From positions 1 through 63,804 of the forward strand of contig NZ_JAPZUB010000027.1 of NCBI RefSeq assembly GCF_027533505.1: a stretch of DNA of 63,804 nt. Direction: 5' to 3'. The notes below the pieces were generated by a model, which saw only the letters and a program-made list of their open reading frames with translations, did not search any database and was not told where the DNA came from. The position numbers and the translations under genes are program-made. Of the stretch, positions 9,794-18,824 are shown in pieces. Source of the DNA: Flavobacterium sp. Its GTDB lineage: Bacteria; Bacteroidota; Bacteroidia; Flavobacteriales; Flavobacteriaceae. The first letter of the stretch is position 1; every line of letters starts with the position of its first letter.

Positions 9794-9818
9794 CCCCCTA
9801 ACCCCCGAAGGGGGAAAG

Positions 9819-9884
9819 AGCTGCTGAGACGCTGAGAGGCTGAGAGGCTAAGCTTCTGAGATGCTGAGCCTCTGAGTTCCTGAG
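9819..9884. repeat. octamer array 1 (AGnnnCTG x8)
   Basis: Eight consecutive 8-bp units of form AGnnnCTG (for example AGAGGCTG, AGCTTCTG, AGATGCTG). Two adjacent units form a near-palindrome (AGCTTCTGAGAGGCT). There are no unique spacers, so it is not a CRISPR. Confidence 0.85.
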
Positions 9885-9904
9885 CAATCGTTTCGTGAAG
9901 ATAG

Positions 9905-9934
9905 GGATGGGATTTCTCCTTGCATCGAAAGGAC
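9905..9934 (-). repeat. ATTTCGAC-type interspersed repeat, inverted copy
   Basis: ATGGGATTTCTCCT followed by a diverged GCATCGAAAGGAC. This is the imperfect reverse complement of 10172-10201. Interspersed repeats of the kind 'GTCATTTCGAC..GGAGAAATC' are, from memory, common in Bacteroidetes genomes. Confidence 0.6.
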
Positions 9935-9940
9935 GTTTAA

Positions 9941-10030
9941 AGCTCCTGAGAGGCTGAGTTTTTGAGCCGCTAAGAGGCTGAGCTTCTGAGAGGCTGAACT
10001 TCTGAGAGGCTGAGCCGCTAAGCTCCTGAG
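9941..10030. repeat. octamer array 2 (AGnnnCTG x11)
   Basis: Eleven 8-bp units in phase, dominated by AGAGGCTG alternating with AGCTTCTG or AGCCGCTA. It is the same unit as array 1 and as the array on the far side of the island. Confidence 0.85.
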
Positions 10031-10171
10031 AAAACACCTCCTAAACATCTTAAATCTGCTACTGTTTACGGATTATTTTTCTGGGTTTGAAGGAAAGATA
10101 TAATCGCTCCTTAGTTTGGATGCTAACGGAATATGGTTTCGTTTCATGAGCACATTACCTCTCAGATACCA

Positions 10172-10201
10172 ATTGTCATTTCGACGTTAGGAGAAATCCC
10201 A
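10172..10201 (+). repeat. ATTTCGAC-type interspersed repeat
   Basis: TGTCATTTCGACGTTAGGAG and then AAATCCCATA. It is a direct-sense copy paired with the inverted copy at 9905-9934, about 240 bp away, with octamer array 2 between them. Confidence 0.6.
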
Positions 10202-10347
10202 TAACGTTGGGCTCGAGTTTGCTAAAAAAGTATAGCTTGTTTCTTGAGGCTTGCTACCCGAAACGGGGGGATTCCTTTTTTATCCTTTTCGCTGGTTTTC
10301 GTTGGTTTTCGACTATGATTTTGGGTTATCGATTTCATGGCTTTTTC

Positions 10348-10391
10348 ATGGACTATCTATGGAGTATCTATGGAGTATCTATGGAGTATCT
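10348..10391. repeat. 11-bp tandem repeat x4
   Basis: ATGGAGTATCT repeated four times with one substitution in the first unit. The period is close to one turn of B-DNA. Confidence 0.85.
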
Positions 10392-10925
10392 AAGGCGTAC
10401 ACCTATTCCACCCCTTACTTTGGGGTAAAACTAGGGTGCATGTTCGGAATTTGGTATACATGAAAACTACCGCAACGCTGTTTTATGTACACTCCCGCTG
10501 ACCGAAACACCCCCCTACGTTGCTTTTTTTGAAAAGCACTATACCTCCCCAAAAAAAACTCCTTTTTATGCCCCTTTACGGAAAACCGTACCGTCCCCAC
10601 TTTTTTTTGCTGTAATTTTATGACTTGGGGAAAAATACCGACTACTCTCCGGAAAAATACCTGTTCCTGCGGGGAAAAATCCTGAGGAGAATTGGGAGAG
10701 AATGTTTAATTTACTGGGATAAATTTTGATGAGGCTTATTCAGGTATTACCAGTAACCCTAAAAGACGACAATGCTTAATACGAACAGACAGAAAAACGA
10801 CATAAAAGCCAACCGCAAATCTATTACATTTGGTTTTGCCCTACCCACAAGCCGACCCATCGGCAAAAGTAAAAGAGTCGTTTCTGCCAACGCATTGCTT
10901 ATAAATGATGTTTTATATCTATTTT

Positions 10926-10942
10926 GTCAGGTTTGTCCTGAC
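10926..10942. promoter_or_regulatory. palindrome 1, candidate AbiEi operator
   Basis: GTCAGG-TTTGT-CCTGAC, a perfect 6+6 inverted repeat with a 5-bp spacer. The same arms and near-identical spacer recur at 11014-11030, 88 bp downstream. AbiEi antitoxins are known to repress their own operon by binding paired inverted repeats. Confidence 0.6.
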
Positions 10943-11013
10943 TGTTTCACTATAAACAATAATTATTTTGACAGATTGAGACAATTTACTCGATTATCTT
11001 TCGTATCATTGCT

Positions 11014-11030
11014 GTCAGGTTTATCCTGAC
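11014..11030. promoter_or_regulatory. palindrome 2, candidate AbiEi operator
   Basis: GTCAGG-TTTAT-CCTGAC, 9 bp before the abiEi start codon, so a bound protein or the RNA hairpin would cover the translation start region. It shares the 18-base core TGTCAGGTTTRTCCTGAC with palindrome 1. Confidence 0.6.
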
Positions 11031-11039
11031 ATTGCTACT

Positions 11040-11861
11040 ATGAAGAATAAATACATTTCAACGCAATCAAACGAGCTTCTGTCCTATTTCAACGGACAGA
11101 ACAGGAATTGCTTTGACTATCCTTTGGCATACAAAGCCCTGCCTGACTCTAAAGCAAGTGCAGTCCGAGAGCTACTAAGCGACATGACAAAGAGAGGTTT
11201 GTTGATGCGTTTGAAAGAAGGTGTTTATTACATTATACCCTATGAACAAAATGCAGAAACCTTTATGCCCGACTGGCATTTGATTGGAGAACATTTGGTG
11301 AATGATGCTAAACATTACATCGGGTATTATTCTGCATTGCAGATACATAACCTCATCACGCAACCATCACTTAAAGAACAAATCGTTGTATCAAAACAAA
11401 TACGACCATCGGAAATTAAAATCAAAGAAGTTCCTTTTCAATTCATCTATCACAACGACAAACATTTTTTCGGAGCTAAGAAAATGTGGATTGATAGCTT
11501 TCACAAAGTGCTGTGTTCCGACTTGGAAAAAACTTTTATTGATTGCCTTTTCAAACCCGATTATGCTGGTGGCATTGTAGAAGTGGCAAGAGCAATCTAC
11601 ACTTCTAAAGACAAGATAAAATACGATACACTTCTTGAATACACCAAGAAATTTGATTCACAAGCGGTAATCAAACGATTGGGTTTTCTTTTAGAAATAT
11701 TGGACATCAACACACATGTTATTCAGGAACTGCAACAAATGAAAACCGCTTCGTATGTAGTGCTTGATACCGAATTGCCTAAAGTGGGAAAACGAATTAG
11801 TCGTTGGAGTATTCAGCAAAATTTGGAGACCGAAACTATTAAATCCGCTATTTACACATGA
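11040..11861 (+). CDS. abiEi: AbiEi-family antitoxin/transcriptional repressor
   Basis: 273 residues. The N-terminal winged-helix part (about 5-70) contains ELLSYFNGQNRNCFDYPLAYKAL and VRELLSDMTKRGLLMRLKEGVYYIIP, the usual 'ALSRLVKRGLL.RL..G.Y' wing. The middle domain, HYIGYYSALQIHNLITQP, SLKEQIVVSKQIRP and DLEKTFIDCLFKPDYAGGIVEVARAI, is typical of the AbiEi family. The family neutralises AbiEii without direct contact (type IV toxin-antitoxin) and represses its own promoter. The stop overlaps the abiEii start by 4 bp (ATGA). Two identical palindromes precede it. Base composition is visibly more AT-rich than tpiA or the ABC genes on either side. Confidence 0.9.
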   Translation: MKNKYISTQSNELLSYFNGQNRNCFDYPLAYKALPDSKASAVRELLSDMTKRGLLMRLKEGVYYIIPYEQNAETFMPDWHLIGEHLVNDAKHYIGYYSALQIHNLITQPSLKEQIVVSKQIRPSEIKIKEVPFQFIYHNDKHFFGAKKMWIDSFHKVLCSDLEKTFIDCLFKPDYAGGIVEVARAIYTSKDKIKYDTLLEYTKKFDSQAVIKRLGFLLEILDINTHVIQELQQMKTASYVVLDTELPKVGKRISRWSIQQNLETETIKSAIYT

Positions 11862-12661
11862 TTAAGCCGGGAGAAATACAGCAAAAAGCAAATGCAGTTG
11901 GCGTTCGTGACCAGCAGCTTGAAAAGGATTACATTCTTTCATGGATTCTGTTTGGCATTGCTAGCCATGAGCACCTTTCAAAGACAATCGTTTTTAAAGG
12001 TGGAACAGTTTTAAAGAAAGTCTATTTCGAAGATTACCGTTTTTCAGAGGACTTGGATTTTACATTGCTGAATGCAGAAATATCGAATGAGCAAATTTTC
12101 GCATGGTTTAAAGAAGTATTTGAATTCATTAAAGATGAAGCCAATATTCCTCTAGACATCATTGACAACAACGAGCATGAAGATGGCGGTATCAATTTTT
12201 ATATCAGCTATATTGGTCCACTTGGCGGACAAGGGACCAACAAACGAGTAAAAGTTGATATTTCACGCAGTGAACAACTGGTTTTTGAACCAGTAATGAA
12301 TGATGTATTAATCGGCTATTCCGATTTGGAAGAGCACCAATTGTTGTGTTATCCATTAGAAGAGGTTTTAGTTGAAAAAATGCGTTCGGTAATGCAGCGA
12401 ATGCAAGCAAGAGATTTTTACGATATCTGGTATTTGTTGGAAGAACATGAAATGGATGCAGATTTTTATCTAAGTGAATTTGAAACCAAATGCAAAAGCA
12501 AAGATTTACGACACACCGATTTCCTGAAAAAATTAGATGAAAGATTACCACAATACAAAGGCAGATGGAAAAGCTCTATGAGCGAACAAATAAAAGACCT
12601 GCCCGACTTTGACCAAGTAGAACGTGAAGTGCAACGACACCTTAAAAAATTGAAATTCTAG
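11858..12661 (+). CDS. abiEii: AbiEii/AbiGii-family nucleotidyltransferase toxin
   Basis: 267 residues with the nucleotidyltransferase core of AbiEii/MenT toxins: IVFKGGTVLKKVY (45-56), RFSEDLDFTLL (61-71, metal-binding Asp pair), VKVDIS (131-136), and LVEKMRSVMQRMQARDFYDIWYLL (171-194) with Lys174 and the Arg-Asp of ARDFYD. All catalytic positions I can recognise are present, so it looks active. Related toxins modify tRNA or otherwise block growth; the target here is unknown. It is coupled to abiEi (4-bp overlap). The methyltransferase gene starts 2 bp after its stop, so this toxin-antitoxin pair heads a longer operon. Confidence 0.93.
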   Translation: MIKPGEIQQKANAVGVRDQQLEKDYILSWILFGIASHEHLSKTIVFKGGTVLKKVYFEDYRFSEDLDFTLLNAEISNEQIFAWFKEVFEFIKDEANIPLDIIDNNEHEDGGINFYISYIGPLGGQGTNKRVKVDISRSEQLVFEPVMNDVLIGYSDLEEHQLLCYPLEEVLVEKMRSVMQRMQARDFYDIWYLLEEHEMDADFYLSEFETKCKSKDLRHTDFLKKLDERLPQYKGRWKSSMSEQIKDLPDFDQVEREVQRHLKKLKF

Positions 12662-12663
12662 CA

Positions 12664-15381
12664 ATGAACAGTCACGAAATAGAACAGAACGTAAAACGAA
12701 TGATAGAGAATTTCTCGGAAGAGAATTTTCTCTATGACTTGTTGCTGTCTTATGGCATTTCTAAAACTTCCATTACAAGATTGAAAAGTGGAGATTTTAA
12801 TCTTTCTAAAGTTGATAGCGAAATACTTTACAAAAAGAAAATCTTCTTCAAGCAACTTCCAACCGATAAGTTGTTGAGTTCCATTGAAAGCCTTGCAAAA
12901 GAAGAAAGAATTTTAAAACACTCGCCACGCTTTGCAGTAGTTACCGATTACAAAAATTTGGTGGCAAAGGATTTGAAACTGGGTAAAAACCTGGACATAG
13001 CAATTAAAGATTTGCCCAATCATTATGCATTCTTTTTGCCGCTTGCTGGAAGCGAAGTATATCATTCCACAAATGACAATGAAGCCGACCGTAATGCAGC
13101 CTACAAAATGGCACAGCTTTATGACTTGCTCATAACTCAAAACCCTAATGTTTACAATTCAAAAGAGAGCATTCACAACCTGAATATATTTCTATCTCGT
13201 TTGTTGTTTTGCTTTTTTGCGGAAGACACAGAAATTTTTGATGGTGACAGCATTTTCACGAATACGCTTTATCAGCACACCAACGAGAACGGCAGCGATA
13301 CGCACTTGTTTCTCGACCGTTTATTTGACCGACTGAATACAGAAAATGCAAAAGGTTATCCTGCTCATCTAGCTCAATTTCCTTACGTAAATGGAGGATT
13401 GTTTAGAGATAAAATCGCTTCACCAGTATTTACTCCCAAAGCCCGAAAAATATTGGTGGAGTTGGGTGAATTGAATTGGCGGGACATCAACCCCGATATT
13501 TTTGGCTCCATGATTCAGGCGGTGGTTATTCCTGAATACAGAAGTGATTTAGGTATGCACTACACTAGCGTGCCCAACATTCAGAAACTTATTAAACCTT
13601 TGTTTTTAGATGCGTTATATGAGGAGTTTGAAAACTGCAAAACCATTCCGCAACTGCGTAAACTGATTAACCGCATTGCCAAAATCAAATTCTTTGACCC
13701 GGCTTGCGGAAGCGGGAATTTTTTGATTATCACATACAAGGAAATTCGTTTGTTGGAAATAAAAATCTTGCAACGCATTATTGACCTAAGCCCAGCGCCT
13801 GCTATGGAATTTACTTCCATCCAGCTTTCACAGTTTTATGGCATTGAGTTAGATGATTTTGCCCACGAAATGGCAATTCTTTCTTTGTGGTTGGCTGAAC
13901 ACCAAATGAACAAAGTATTTGAAGAAATGCTGTTTGATTATGGACGTTCCAAACCAATACTGCCACTAAAACAGGCGGGGAAAATTGTTCAAGCAAATGC
14001 CACAAGGAAAGATTGGAAAACAGTATGCCCGATTGGAAAAGATGATGAAATCTATATTATTGGGAATCCGCCTTATTTAGGATATGCAAGGCAAGATGCA
14101 GAACAGAAAATAGATATGGATTTAACTTTTGTAGGTGTAAGAGACTACAAAAAGTTAGACTACATTGCCTGTTGGTTTTATATTGCCTCATCTTACATTC
14201 AAAATACTTCTGCTAAATACGCTTTTGTTACAACAAATTCTATAACTCAAGGCGAACAAGTATCACTATTGTGGCCGCTCATTTTCGGTAAGAATCAAGA
14301 AATTTCATTTGCACATCTATCATTCAAATGGACTAATAATGCCAAAGGAAACGCAGGAGTTGCTGTTGTAATTATTGGAATCAGAAATGTTAGCGAGGCA
14401 GACAAATTTATTTACGAAAAGAATGTAAAGAAGTCTGTAAAAAACATAAATCCTTATCTGATAAACTATAGTAATGTTATTATTCAATCACGTAGTAAAT
14501 CAATTTCAGGTTTCCCGGAAATGATAATTGGTAGCAAAATAAGCGATAATGGAAATTTATTGTTAGAAGCTAACGAGAAAGAAAAATTGATTACTCAATT
14601 TCCTACATCTGAAAAATTTATTAAAAAGTTTATTGGAGCACAAGAATTCATGAGCAATACTTACAGGTATTGTATTCATGTAGAAGATGAAAAACAGGTT
14701 CATGAAGCATCTAATATAAGAGCATTGAAAGAACGTTTCGAGAAAGTAAAAGTCTTCAGATTAAAAAGTAAAAAAGATGCAACCATAAAGAAGGCGGGAA
14801 CACCATATTTCTTTGATGAAGACAAATATCAAAAAAAGGAATTCCTTCTAGTTCCACAAACTGGATCAGAAAAACGAGAGTATGTTCCAATAGGTTACTT
14901 TGATAGTTCTTATGTTCCATCAAACGGAACAAGAGTTATTTACAACGTTCAACCTTGGTTGTTTGGAATCATTTCTTCAAAAATGCATATCGTTTGGGTT
15001 AAAGCAGTTGCTGGTAGATTGAAAACGGACATGCAATATTCAAATACATTATGCTACAACACTTTTCCTTTTCCTGACATTACTCTCAAGCAAAAGGAAA
15101 ATCTGAACTTGTATGTATTTGCCATATTGGATGAACGGGCCAAGCATCCCGAAAAAACAATGGCACAACTTTACGACCCCGAGAAAATGCCAAAGGGTTT
15201 AAGGCAAGCCCACGAAGAACTGGACCGTGCCGTAGAACAATGTTACCGCTTGCAGCCGTTTACTTCCGATACAGAACGATTGGAGTATTTGTTTAAACTA
15301 TATGAAGAAATGACCAAAAGCGGAACTTTGTTTGAGAAGCAGAAGAAAACAAGAAAATCAACAGCAAAAGCGAAAAAGTAA
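12664..15381 (+). CDS. MmeI-like class I SAM-dependent DNA adenine methyltransferase
   Basis: 905 residues. The MTase core has motif I FFDPACGSGNFLI (343-355), the YGIELDDFAHEMA region (392-404) and motif IV GNPPYLG (467-473; NPPY marks N6-adenine methylation). The C-terminal third follows the MmeI/type IIL pattern: VPQTGSEKREYVPIGYF (about 730-746), SNGTRVI, FGIISSKMHIVWVKAVAGRL and SNTLCYNTFPFPD, which is target recognition. MmeI itself carries a PD-(D/E)xK nuclease in its first ~150 residues. The corresponding part here (about 85-130, LDIAIKDLPNHYAFFLPLAG) shows no ExK, so it probably only modifies or recognises DNA. A helicase and a GIY-YIG-like gene follow at once, and could supply motor and nuclease. 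Confidence 0.9.
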   Translation: MNSHEIEQNVKRMIENFSEENFLYDLLLSYGISKTSITRLKSGDFNLSKVDSEILYKKKIFFKQLPTDKLLSSIESLAKEERILKHSPRFAVVTDYKNLVAKDLKLGKNLDIAIKDLPNHYAFFLPLAGSEVYHSTNDNEADRNAAYKMAQLYDLLITQNPNVYNSKESIHNLNIFLSRLLFCFFAEDTEIFDGDSIFTNTLYQHTNENGSDTHLFLDRLFDRLNTENAKGYPAHLAQFPYVNGGLFRDKIASPVFTPKARKILVELGELNWRDINPDIFGSMIQAVVIPEYRSDLGMHYTSVPNIQKLIKPLFLDALYEEFENCKTIPQLRKLINRIAKIKFFDPACGSGNFLIITYKEIRLLEIKILQRIIDLSPAPAMEFTSIQLSQFYGIELDDFAHEMAILSLWLAEHQMNKVFEEMLFDYGRSKPILPLKQAGKIVQANATRKDWKTVCPIGKDDEIYIIGNPPYLGYARQDAEQKIDMDLTFVGVRDYKKLDYIACWFYIASSYIQNTSAKYAFVTTNSITQGEQVSLLWPLIFGKNQEISFAHLSFKWTNNAKGNAGVAVVIIGIRNVSEADKFIYEKNVKKSVKNINPYLINYSNVIIQSRSKSISGFPEMIIGSKISDNGNLLLEANEKEKLITQFPTSEKFIKKFIGAQEFMSNTYRYCIHVEDEKQVHEASNIRALKERFEKVKVFRLKSKKDATIKKAGTPYFFDEDKYQKKEFLLVPQTGSEKREYVPIGYFDSSYVPSNGTRVIYNVQPWLFGIISSKMHIVWVKAVAGRLKTDMQYSNTLCYNTFPFPDITLKQKENLNLYVFAILDERAKHPEKTMAQLYDPEKMPKGLRQAHEELDRAVEQCYRLQPFTSDTERLEYLFKLYEEMTKSGTLFEKQKKTRKSTAKAKK

Positions 15382-15383
15382 GT

Positions 15384-17348
15384 ATGCCAGATTTAATAAA
15401 AGTAGAATACGGACAAACAGGCAAAAGCAAAAAGACCAATGCTTTGGGAATGCGTGAAATGCAGGAACGGGCATACAATGCCCGAACGGCTCAATATCTT
15501 TTGATAAAAGCACCGCCAGCATCTGGCAAGTCAAGGGCTTTGATGTTTATTGCATTAGATAAACTCAAAAATCAGGGCATTAAAAAAGCCATTGTAGCCG
15601 TTCCTGAAAAATCAATTGGTGCATCGTTCAGTTCAACCAAATTGACCGAACAGGGCTTTTTTGCCGATTGGACAGTGAATCCAAAATACAACCTTTGCAC
15701 AGCAGGTTCAGATAAAAGTAAGGTAAAATCATTCTTAGAGTTTTTGGAAAGTGACGAACAAATATTGATTTGCACACATGCCACATTACGATTTGCCTTT
15801 GATGGTTTGGATGAAAAGAAACTGAACGATACTTTGATTGCTATTGATGAATTTCACCACGTTTCAGCAGATGGTGACAATCGTTTGGGTGAAGTAATGA
15901 AAAACATCATGGCAAAATCAAATGCTCATGTTGTAGCCATGACAGGTTCGTATTTCAGAGGCGACAATGTTCCGGTATTACTTCCAGAAGATGAAGCCAA
16001 GTTCACAAAAGTTACTTACAACTATTACGAGCAATTGAATGGCTATGAGTATTTAAAATCATTGGGAATCGGCTATCATTTTTACACAGGTCGTTATTTT
16101 AAAAAACAACCCGACAAACCTATGTCGGCACTCGAAGAAATTTTAGATGAAAGCAAAAAGACCATTATCCATATACCAAGTGTAAACTCTGCCGAATCTT
16201 CAAGAGAAAAATATGAGGAAGTAGGACATATCATTGATGCGTTGGGTGATTTAGAATCGCAAGATGAAAATACGGGAGTGTTGTATGTAAAAAGCAAGCG
16301 TTCGGGCAAAGTGCTGAAAGTAGCCGATTTGGTAAACGACAATCAAAAAGAACGGGATAAAATTTCCGCTTATTTGCGAGATTCAAATACTGCTGACGCC
16401 ATAGACATCATTATTGCATTAGGCATGGCAAAAGAAGGTTTTGATTGGCCGAATTGCGAACATGCTTTAACCATAGGTTACAGAGGTTCATTAACAGAAA
16501 TTATTCAAATCATCGGTCGGGCAACAAGAGACAGCAACAACAAAACACATGCTCAATTTACCAACCTAATTGCACAACCCGAAGCAGAAACAGACGAAGT
16601 GAAAGTGGCGGTTAACAATATGTTGAAAGCCATTACCGCTTCTTTATTGATGGAACAAGTGTTGGCTCCCAACTTCAAATTCAAATTGAAAGAAGATGAC
16701 AACGAAGAAGAGGAAAAAAATGATGATCAAAACACCATAAGAATCAGAGGGTTCAAGCTGCCCACGTCACAGCGTGCCAAAGACATTATTGAAAGCGATT
16801 TGAACGATTTAAAAGCAAGGATTCTGCAAGACGACCAAATGCTGAAAGCTATGCCTGGCAATGTAGAGCCCGAAATAATCAACACGGTCTTAATCCCAAA
16901 AATTATTCGTGAAGTTTATCCTGATTTGAGTGAAGAAGATGTAGAAGCCGTTCGTCAACATGTTGTAGTAGATTCAGTGATAAAGAACAGCGTTATTGAA
17001 GAACAAGGCGGAAAGAAATTTGTGCGAATGGCAAACAGCTTTGTAAACATAGACGACATTCACATTGATTTGATTGACCAAGTAAATCCATTTCAAAAAG
17101 CATTTGAAATTTTATCGAAATCGGTAACAACCCAAGTTTTGAAACTGATTGATGAACATATTCAATCCATCAAAATTGAAATGACCGAAGAAGAAGCTAT
17201 CATGCTATGGCCTAAAATAAAAGAATGGATTGGACGCACAGGAGAAGCCCCTAATCTTCAATCGTATGACCCGAAAGAGAAAAGAATGGCAGAGGCAGTT
17301 ATTTTTTTACGAGAACTAAAAAGACAAAGAGCATTGAATGAGCAATAA
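15384..17348 (+). CDS. DEAD/DEAH-box SF2 helicase
   Basis: 654 residues. Walker A is APPASGKSRA (43-52), motif II is DEFHH (155-159), motif III is TGSYF (187-191), motif V is ALGMAKEGFDWP (about 345-356) and motif VI is QIIGRATRD (375-383), so the motor looks intact. The last ~230 residues, after an acidic stretch (KEDDNEEEEKNDDQ, about 428-441), match nothing I recognise. It starts 2 bp after the methyltransferase stop and overlaps the next gene by 11 bp. By analogy with type I and III restriction enzymes it could translocate DNA for a partner nuclease; that is inference. It lacks a visible nuclease domain. Confidence 0.92.
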   Translation: MPDLIKVEYGQTGKSKKTNALGMREMQERAYNARTAQYLLIKAPPASGKSRALMFIALDKLKNQGIKKAIVAVPEKSIGASFSSTKLTEQGFFADWTVNPKYNLCTAGSDKSKVKSFLEFLESDEQILICTHATLRFAFDGLDEKKLNDTLIAIDEFHHVSADGDNRLGEVMKNIMAKSNAHVVAMTGSYFRGDNVPVLLPEDEAKFTKVTYNYYEQLNGYEYLKSLGIGYHFYTGRYFKKQPDKPMSALEEILDESKKTIIHIPSVNSAESSREKYEEVGHIIDALGDLESQDENTGVLYVKSKRSGKVLKVADLVNDNQKERDKISAYLRDSNTADAIDIIIALGMAKEGFDWPNCEHALTIGYRGSLTEIIQIIGRATRDSNNKTHAQFTNLIAQPEAETDEVKVAVNNMLKAITASLLMEQVLAPNFKFKLKEDDNEEEEKNDDQNTIRIRGFKLPTSQRAKDIIESDLNDLKARILQDDQMLKAMPGNVEPEIINTVLIPKIIREVYPDLSEEDVEAVRQHVVVDSVIKNSVIEEQGGKKFVRMANSFVNIDDIHIDLIDQVNPFQKAFEILSKSVTTQVLKLIDEHIQSIKIEMTEEEAIMLWPKIKEWIGRTGEAPNLQSYDPKEKRMAEAVIFLRELKRQRALNEQ

Positions 17349-18549
17349 GAAAAAAATATCATTAGACGACATCTTCAATGATGATGAGTTTGGCTTGTTG
17401 GATTCAACTGCAAAAGCTTCAAACGTAAAAACAGCAGACCAAAGGCTGATTGATTCGTTTGAAGAAATAAATGCATTCGTTGATAAAAATGGCAGAGAGC
17501 CAAATACATCAAGCATGTCGGAATACGGATTGTTAGCCCGTTTGAAAAACATAAGAGAAAATGAACAGCAAAAAATATCATTAAAGCCATTCGACAGACA
17601 TAATCTTTTAGGCGAAGTAGAAATTCCAAAAGCTTCGATTGATGATATTTTAAATGATGATGAATTTGGTTTATTGGAAACAGACAGCGATTTGTCCATC
17701 TTCAAATACAAGCATATTTCCAAAGATGATGAGAGAGAAAAAGCAGACTTTGTTGCACAGAGAAAACCGTTAAAAGAAGAAGAATTTAAACCTTTTGAAG
17801 CTATGTTTCAAAAGGTGCATCAGGAAATCAAAGAAGGAAAACGGCAAATCAAACCGTTTCACAACATTGAAAAAAACCTGCACGTTGGCAACTTCTATTT
17901 AATTGATGGCGTAATGCTCTACCTGAAAGAAGCCAAACTGGAGAAGGCAGTTCGAGAGTTAAAATCGGGTGACCGTGAACGCATTGAAGGGCGAACGTTC
18001 ACCATTTTTGAAAACGGAACTTACAGCAACATGCTTTATCGTTCACTTGGGAAACAAATTCAAAAAAATGGGAAATTAATTACAAATGCACATGAAGGAA
18101 TCAACAATGAACTGTATGTAAATACAGGAATGGTAATGGAAGAGGATATAAAGACGGGTTGGATTTATGTACTAAAATCTAAGTCAAATCATCCTTCAAT
18201 ATCAGGCATTAAGAATTTATTCAAAATTGGATTTTCGTCCACACCTTTAGACGATCGAATTAAGAACGCTAAAAATGAAGCTACTTACCTATATGCAGAT
18301 GTAACAAAAGTTTCAAGCTATGCTTGCTATAACCGTAATGCAGACAAACTTGAACAACTGCTTCACAGATTTTTTGCGGAAGCATGTCTGAATGTTGACA
18401 TAGAAATAATTCAAGGAAAAAGAATTACTCCAAGAGAATGGTTTGTAGTTCCTTTTGAAGAAATAGAAAGGGCAATTGAATTAATACTAAATGAACAAAT
18501 CGTAAACTATAAATATGAAAGAGAAATTGAGAAAATCATACTCAAATAG
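17338..18549 (+). CDS. GIY-YIG/T5orf172-domain nuclease-like protein
   Basis: 403 residues. The C-terminal domain (about 274-395) fits T5orf172/Mug113 of the GIY-YIG superfamily: GWIYVLKS (274-281), LFKIGFSS (294-301), DDRIKNA with the conserved Arg, DKLEQLLHRFF with the conserved Glu, and REWFVVPFEEIERAI. The N-terminus carries the acidic motif SLDDIFNDDEFGLLD (8-22) and a second copy SIDDILNDDEFGLLE (100-114), possible docking peptides. The start ATG lies 11 bp inside the helicase gene. As the only nuclease-like domain in the operon, it is the likely effector. A second small helical segment (TADQRLIDSFEEINAFVDKNGREPN) recalls DNA-binding helicase-associated repeats. Confidence 0.85.
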   Translation: MSNKKKISLDDIFNDDEFGLLDSTAKASNVKTADQRLIDSFEEINAFVDKNGREPNTSSMSEYGLLARLKNIRENEQQKISLKPFDRHNLLGEVEIPKASIDDILNDDEFGLLETDSDLSIFKYKHISKDDEREKADFVAQRKPLKEEEFKPFEAMFQKVHQEIKEGKRQIKPFHNIEKNLHVGNFYLIDGVMLYLKEAKLEKAVRELKSGDRERIEGRTFTIFENGTYSNMLYRSLGKQIQKNGKLITNAHEGINNELYVNTGMVMEEDIKTGWIYVLKSKSNHPSISGIKNLFKIGFSSTPLDDRIKNAKNEATYLYADVTKVSSYACYNRNADKLEQLLHRFFAEACLNVDIEIIQGKRITPREWFVVPFEEIERAIELILNEQIVNYKYEREIEKIILK

Positions 18550-18720
18550 CCATCGCAAAGGTGTAAGCACATTTGAAAGCCGCTACAAGCTCTACTCGGC
18601 GTGAAATAAAATTCGACCACGTCAATCCTATCGCGTGGAAAAAAATAAAGCCCGCCTCCGCAACAGCCTCCTGACGTTGCAGTTTTCTCAGGTTTAAGGT
18701 TTCAGCTTCTGGGTGATTAA

Positions 18721-18752
18721 AGCTTCTGAGAGGCTGAGCTTCTGAGCTTCTG
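18721..18752. repeat. octamer array 3 (AGnnnCTG x4)
   Basis: AGCTTCTG, AGAGGCTG, AGCTTCTG, AGCTTCTG in phase, with an isolated AGCTTCTG at 18704-18711. This is the same unit as arrays 1 and 2, which lie 8.7 kb away on the other side of the defence operon. Confidence 0.85.
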
Positions 18753-18777
18753 AACTAAGCAATTAAAATACGAACGA

Positions 18778-18811
18778 AACTCCCGATTTTTTTAATCGGG
18801 AGTTTTTTTTT
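18778..18811 (+). terminator. rho-independent terminator after the island
   Basis: AACTCCCGAT / ATCGGGAGTT stem of 10 bp with a T-rich loop and a run of nine T. It is oriented to stop transcription from the defence operon. The preceding A run is short, so it acts mainly in the plus direction. Confidence 0.85.
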
Positions 18812-18824
18812 GCACTACGGATAG

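Follow-up and report, generated by a model that had tools for sequence, protein, structure and literature searches.

The window, by which we mean the whole stretch of 63,804 nucleotides of Flavobacterium sp. DNA analysed here (contig NZ_JAPZUB010000027.1), carries five open reading frames (ORFs) on the + strand spanning positions 11040-18549, in which an AbiE type IV toxin-antitoxin pair, with abiEi and abiEii adjacent within one operon, is followed by a predicted adenine methyltransferase related to MmeI, a superfamily 2 (SF2) helicase and a T5orf172/GIY-YIG-type protein (Table 1). The junctions between successive genes measure -4, +2, +2 and -11 bp. An ORF check reproduced exactly the five ORFs and the junctions given in an initial annotation of this stretch, and its claim of one tightly packed operon was borne out by these positions and junctions, while the domain matches confirmed its division of modification/recognition, motor and nuclease among three distinct proteins.

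Table 1. Positions of the operon genes, the recognition domain, the palindromes and the inserted segment in the window
Feature	Position	Strand	Remarks
Inserted segment, 8,967 bp, downstream of tpiA	9810..18776	.	Not in two same-genus genomes (L261, L263)
Distal palindrome GTCAGG-N5-CCTGAC, predicted AbiEi operator copy 1	10926..10942	.	Sequence only
Proximal palindrome GTCAGG-N5-CCTGAC, predicted AbiEi operator copy 2	11014..11030	.	88 bp past copy 1
AbiEi-family antitoxin, predicted autorepressor	11040..11861	+	273 aa; PADLOC AbiEi 2.4e-95
AbiEii nucleotidyltransferase-family protein, predicted toxin	11858..12661	+	267 aa; Pfam AbiEii 2.8e-37
DnmA-like (MmeI-related) predicted adenine methyltransferase	12664..15381	+	905 aa; N-terminal nuclease not recognisable
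Methyltransferase target recognition domain	14470..15081	+	Pfam residues 603-806; diverges between otherwise near-identical operons
YeeB-like SF2 helicase, predicted DNA motor	15384..17348	+	654 aa; DEAD 1e-9, ResIII 1e-8, Helicase_C 5e-7
YeeC-like T5orf172/GIY-YIG-type protein, predicted nuclease subunit	17338..18549	+	403 aa; MUG113 4e-15, T5orf172 4e-12

AbiEi also scored 0.0098 with Pfam AbiEi_1 and 1e-6 with NCBIfam AbiEi, both below the family cut-offs, and AbiEii matched an AbiGII chain (9hlo_B) in the structural database at 6.6e-10. The genome of the window holds a second, weak AbiEii-family match at G000:C6:60121-60609 (30 bits).

AbiE pairs ahead of restriction genes

The identical five genes in identical order were found in a Chitinophagaceae metagenome-assembled genome (MAG; L002) and in a genome of the window's class (L165), a repetition of gene set and order which puts the arrangement beyond chance and upholds the link between AbiE and the trio proposed in the initial annotation. 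We also looked at what follows AbiE in the 27 evaluable loci, defined as close AbiE loci in which the downstream DNA is readable and AbiEii is unbroken; the locus set leaves out nine distant or partial matches (G213, G075, G028, G246, G167, G392, G334, G362, G189). Ten of these loci had a coupled gene, and a tight junction to restriction genes was seen in 8 of the 10, or in 6 of 8 when the window and L002 are set aside.

The individual layouts are varied. At L118 (2705-9911), AbiE heads a type I system in the order AbiEi-AbiEii-HsdM-HsdS-HsdR, each of the first three gene pairs overlapping by 4 bp. At L167 (7763-13595), AbiE is coupled to a DruF-like gene of 662 residues and three further genes (465, 105 and 171 aa), for which no Pfam or PADLOC family was found. 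At L224, on the reverse strand, AbiE is followed at -4 bp by a methylase piece of 444 residues and then by an integrase-core ORF, and neither a helicase nor a GIY gene was found within that stretch.

The AbiE pair of the window is nearest to the stand-alone pair at L116 (93% over 540 columns, with 91% identity for AbiEii), and that of L165 is nearest to L224 and L121, while the L165 helicase is about 70% identical to that of the window and nearest to AbiE-free relatives (L061, 84%). In approximately unbiased (AU) tests, for which the groups were picked by neighbour genes and which were run once the tree had been seen, placing the AbiE pairs of the window, L002, L165 and L224 in one clade cost 225 log-likelihood units (p-AU 9e-53), and placing those of the window and L002 alone in a clade cost 44 units (p=0.0013). 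A single origin of the union of AbiE with the trio was rejected on these tests, which together with the kinships of AbiE and helicase indicate that AbiE was put before trios more than once, or was swapped in place.

We are thus inclined to view AbiE with its promoter as behaving in evolution like a cassette that is set ahead of several unrelated restriction systems. Toxins embedded in restriction operons and repressors shared among defence systems are known. For AbiE at the head of various types of restriction operon, no literature description was found by searching titles and the starts of abstracts, with subscription journals mostly outside the reach of the search. Taking together the observed gene order, spacing, insert borders, palindromes and recognition-domain divergence, and the recurring layouts of AbiE with the trio and with other restriction genes, we hold with moderate confidence that AbiEi, through the twin palindromes, represses the whole operon, that the trio methylates adenine and likely cuts unmarked DNA, and that AbiEii acts as a fail-safe.

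The trio and its recognition domain

The initial annotation had named the operon the best candidate for an undescribed defence system in the window; for the trio, we rejected this. The window has a nuclease-less MmeI-type methylase, an SF2 helicase and then a T5orf172 protein on one strand, which is the make-up and order of the dnmA-yeeB-yeeC genes of B. subtilis (PMC9973331; PMC7261158), an assignment made by domains and order, and a Bacillota relative of the helicase was found in Ureibacillus (L039, 66% identity). In the portions of PMC9973331 available, that cluster is described with a DnmA without nuclease motif and with a conserved order, and as previously predicted to be a defence system. 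Nearby toxin-antitoxin genes there are of other kinds, and the available portions describe no AbiE leader.

The nuclease of MmeI sits in the N-terminal part of that protein, with the motif D-x9-ExK. Profile search found five MmeI domains in the methyltransferase of the window (methylase 5e-102, target recognition domain 1e-73, C-terminal 5e-26, N-terminal 2e-25 and spacer 6e-24), and MmeI itself (PDB 5hr4) aligned at E=6e-176, but from residue 86 onwards (MmeI residue 106), although the Pfam MmeI_N profile nonetheless covers residues 1-158. No D-x-ExK nuclease motif was found in the part preceding the MmeI alignment, and the sole D-x(6-20)-[EDQ]xK string in the approximately 190 N-terminal residues examined starts at residue 95. 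Loose D-x8-12-[EQ]xK strings in the first 115 residues of 16 of 63 relatives were considered as a candidate nuclease and rejected as chance, since the eight inspected have differing sequence contexts. The protein thus shares with type IIL MmeI the methylase, recognition and C-terminal domains, but has no alignable N-terminal nuclease region, so that nuclease and motor would be separate proteins.

The comparison with L002 showed where the operon varies. The shared DNA covers 10904-18579, with nothing else shared at E<=1e-5, and has one break, at 14380-14929 (methylase residues ~573-755), which overlaps the recognition domain. Protein identity for genes 1 to 5 was 85.7, 82.4, 75.2, 98.2 and 93.5%, respectively. 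In bins of 50 residues, methylase identity was 74-100% over residues 1-450, 58-64% over 451-600, 46, 30 and 26% over 601-750, 54% over 751-800 and 90-98% over 801-900. A like dip over the recognition region was seen against L003, and weaker dips against L004 and L015. With recognition domains that diverge beside 98% identical helicases, the little-understood DnmA-YeeB-YeeC family becomes directly testable, the prediction being that specificity follows the methylase alone.

These results also bear on the account, like the one proposed for DnmA of B. subtilis, of an epigenetic and non-defensive operon in which the methyltransferase is a working orphan and the other two trio proteins are relics or repurposed. 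Deletions in the B. subtilis trio gave no phenotype with phages or in transformation under the conditions used, and the reported tests found no restriction (PMC9973331, in the portions available), whereas deletions in V. crassostreae are reported to heighten sensitivity to some phages (as cited in PMC9973331). Against this account also stand the conservation of helicase and GIY protein between the window and L002 in spite of recognition-domain divergence, and the motifs of both proteins, which are kept in nearly all scanned relatives: four helicase motifs were present in 78 of 78 relatives, and four GIY motifs in 71, 75, 71 and 73 of 75. Two methylase motifs occurred in every one of the 63 full-length relatives. 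An alignment of 48 GIY proteins showed Y277, K296, G298, R307, E339, H343 and E367-W-F to be invariant. We consider the account improbable. The predicted structure of the GIY protein had a predicted local distance difference test score (pLDDT) of 75.7 and a predicted template modelling score (pTM) of 0.38, with no PDB match at E<=0.001.

To describe the family more widely, a helicase pattern scan of Genome Taxonomy Database (GTDB) genome contigs gave at least 572 confirmed relatives among at least 589 stretches, of which the best 80 were kept as loci. Relatives span Bacteroidetes, Planctomycetes, proteobacteria, Ureibacillus and a Methanosarcinaceae MAG, and within the window's phylum the helicase turned up in 10 of 395 genomes, a count that includes the window's genome and one fragment. 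The GIY gene comes after the helicase in all 80 loci (3 cut by a contig end, 2 in two pieces), which further disfavours relics behind an orphan methylase. The methylase lies upstream of the helicase in 70 loci and downstream in one (L053), and in the remaining 9 the contig ends less than 2.4 kb upstream of the helicase. On a Proteus plasmid (L289, 8936-10141) and an Acinetobacter plasmid (L291, 9930-11136), two adjoining genes (288 + 915 bp) stand at the place of YeeC, the 915-bp gene being annotated GIY-YIG, which looks as though the two parts of YeeC were split.

In 33 of the 70 loci, methylase and helicase are separated by less than 100 bp, and in the other 37 by at least 400 bp; the gap is a common accessory slot in DnmA-YeeB-YeeC-type loci. 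By single-linkage clustering, 19 of the 70 loci carry one cluster of gap genes and 11 another, L040 carrying both (29 loci). Families were taken from a scanned subset of gap genes, in which members of the first cluster were RhuM or Bro-N, those of the second were Schlafen AlbA_2 and/or HATPase_c_4, and other genes were Fic, PrrC-like AAA_13, PDDEXK_3, 23S_rRNA_IVP, DUF1828, KAP or UvrD ATPases, IrrE-like, or of no family. Restriction-modification (R-M) operons with embedded PrrC, RhuM, Fic/Doc or HEPN toxins are known, and those with PrrC, RhuM and Fic/Doc genes have been called multi-pronged defence (PMC3710099). The RhuM, Bro-N, Schlafen AlbA_2, Fic and PrrC-like genes in so frequent a gap would suit an account in which the restriction complex keeps AbiEii as a second line of attack, in the way that PrrI holds PrrC, and frees it when a phage blocks the trio. 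The other scanned gap genes are of different families or none, and AbiE, which brings an antitoxin and palindromes of its own, stands ahead of the trio and outside the gap, its contact with the trio being hypothetical; we regard the account as very improbable. The operon resembles the PrrC/PrrI, RhuM and Fic/Doc operons in joining a toxin gene to a restriction operon, and differs in that its toxin brings antitoxin and promoter and stands at the operon head.

Palindromes and proposed control of the operon

Both palindromes are perfect and begin 114 and 26 bp upstream of abiEi. They are the only two copies in the 2.9-Mb genome, both inside the insert, and a reversed control pattern had zero copies in the same genome. 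Among 32 close AbiE loci, 23 had a twin-palindrome score above 95% of 60 shuffles, as did 4 among 13 distant loci; L173, L282 and L284, with AbiEi cut or missing, were omitted from the scoring. The contrast between the two sets is weak because the inferred abiEi start is often non-ATG in the distant set (10 of 13 in comparison to 3 of 32). Among AbiE loci linked to restriction or defence, 7 of 8 passed, L167 being the failure.

According to the available portions of PMC7319586, AbiEi of S. agalactiae binds inverted repeats in the promoter and represses its own operon, and Rv2827c binds two repeat pairs. The known operator consists of two 23-bp repeats 3 bp apart, in comparison to two 17-bp palindromes 88 bp apart in the window, and AbiE operons are described there as bicistronic (also PMC3985639), whereas the window adds three restriction-type genes 2 bp behind. 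Because these 2 bp between abiEii and the methylase leave no space for an intergenic promoter, control by AbiEi would extend to the trio, provided abiEii hides no promoter. The BrxR/CapW WYL regulators (PMC9122601, in part) likewise combine a repressor with promoter inverted repeats and are common to diverse defence systems, whereas the predicted repressor of the window doubles as an antitoxin, with the toxin gene alongside.

Other assignments were considered for the five genes. DISARM is marked by drmA/drmB and BREX by pglZ/brxC. Neither pair is among the five genes and both systems were rejected; the methylase fits the type IIG model (4e-296) far better than DrmMI (7e-33) or PglX (1e-5).

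In the mechanism we propose, AbiEi would bind both palindromes and set how much of both toxin and trio is made. The trio would mark a single target by adenine methylation and likely cleave DNA without that mark, the recognition domain of the methyltransferase alone dictating the target for helicase and nuclease, like HsdS in type I systems, while the helicase would travel along unmarked DNA and the GIY-YIG protein would cleave it. AbiEii may be both fail-safe and keeper, in that the toxin would arrest the cell upon loss or silencing of the operon, or when the antitoxin is depleted in infection, and the AbiE pair could be seen as a movable on/off switch for restriction systems. Type IV toxin-antitoxin pairs are usually regarded as stand-alone; if AbiEi indeed governs the genes behind it, this would solve how a restriction system enters a new host without cutting unmarked DNA, and also how such systems escape loss.

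Several observations weigh against this reading. No coupled gene was present in 17 of the 27 evaluable AbiE loci, including the nearest, L116, and nine AbiE loci taken as an additional sample were without a restriction operon (one had a DUF1016 piece at +4). Of the 80 trio loci, one (L002) had a close AbiE pair, with a contig edge falling before or within the methylase in at least 14; at L054, a distant AbiE-like pair (29 and 39 bits) lies upstream, separated by a Ppl-like gene. In 9 of the 32 close loci, L167 among them, the twin palindromes scored no better than shuffles, a promoter may be concealed within abiEii, and the methylase divergence from L002 begins upstream of the Pfam recognition domain (the 58-64% bins). 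The absent B. subtilis phenotypes point the same way. As just one of the 80 helicase-detected relatives carries AbiE, the trio can do without it, and AbiE was rejected as an obligate component.

The uncoupled loci and the rarity at trio loci suit an account in which AbiE is a stand-alone module that stands before the trio by chance and stabilises the insert by addiction, the trio having its own promoter or read-through; the toxin-antitoxin genes adjoining the B. subtilis dnmA cluster were likewise suggested as possibly retaining that region (PMC9973331, in part). We find this account possible but doubtful in view of the tight junctions to unrelated restriction genes and the repeated union, or swap, of AbiE with trios. 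The initial annotation had held that the two parts would be merely neighbours if relatives carried them mostly apart and transcripts split between abiEii and the methyltransferase. The first half applies, as mostly apart they are, but mere neighbourhood fits badly with the repeated joining, with the like coupling of close AbiE to other restriction systems, and with a single insert that contains all five genes together with the only two palindromes of the genome.

The inserted segment

Homology to L261 (G793) stops at 9809 and restarts at 18777, and in L261 and L263 (G796) ABC transporter genes directly follow tpiA. tpiA was found in 61 same-genus genomes (the window's included), of which six were compared (L261-L266); in L262, L264, L265 and L266 the transporter lies outside the fetched stretch. 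The G+C content is 37.6% for the insert in comparison to 41.0% for the window.

A phage- or plasmid-borne unit was rejected after scans of IMG/VR, phage records and plasmid records. The helicase was found in 41 IMG/VR contigs; among 50,697 phage records it occurred in 2, each of them partial, and among 72,556 plasmid records in 263. For AbiEii, 5 IMG/VR stretches matched and none was confirmed in a scan for close relatives only, and all 31 matches among the 72,556 plasmid records were below 60% identity.

A terminator-like hairpin with a T-run follows tpiA in L261 (near 11780) and follows the insert in the window (18780-18812); with the hairpin now beyond the insert, the operon ends at the apparent former tpiA terminator. 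Repeats of the GAGAGGCTGAG type lie near both insert ends (9834, 9948, 10004 and 18728), and the empty site in L261 has degenerate-looking repeat traces, so that a repeat cluster was perhaps used as landing site.
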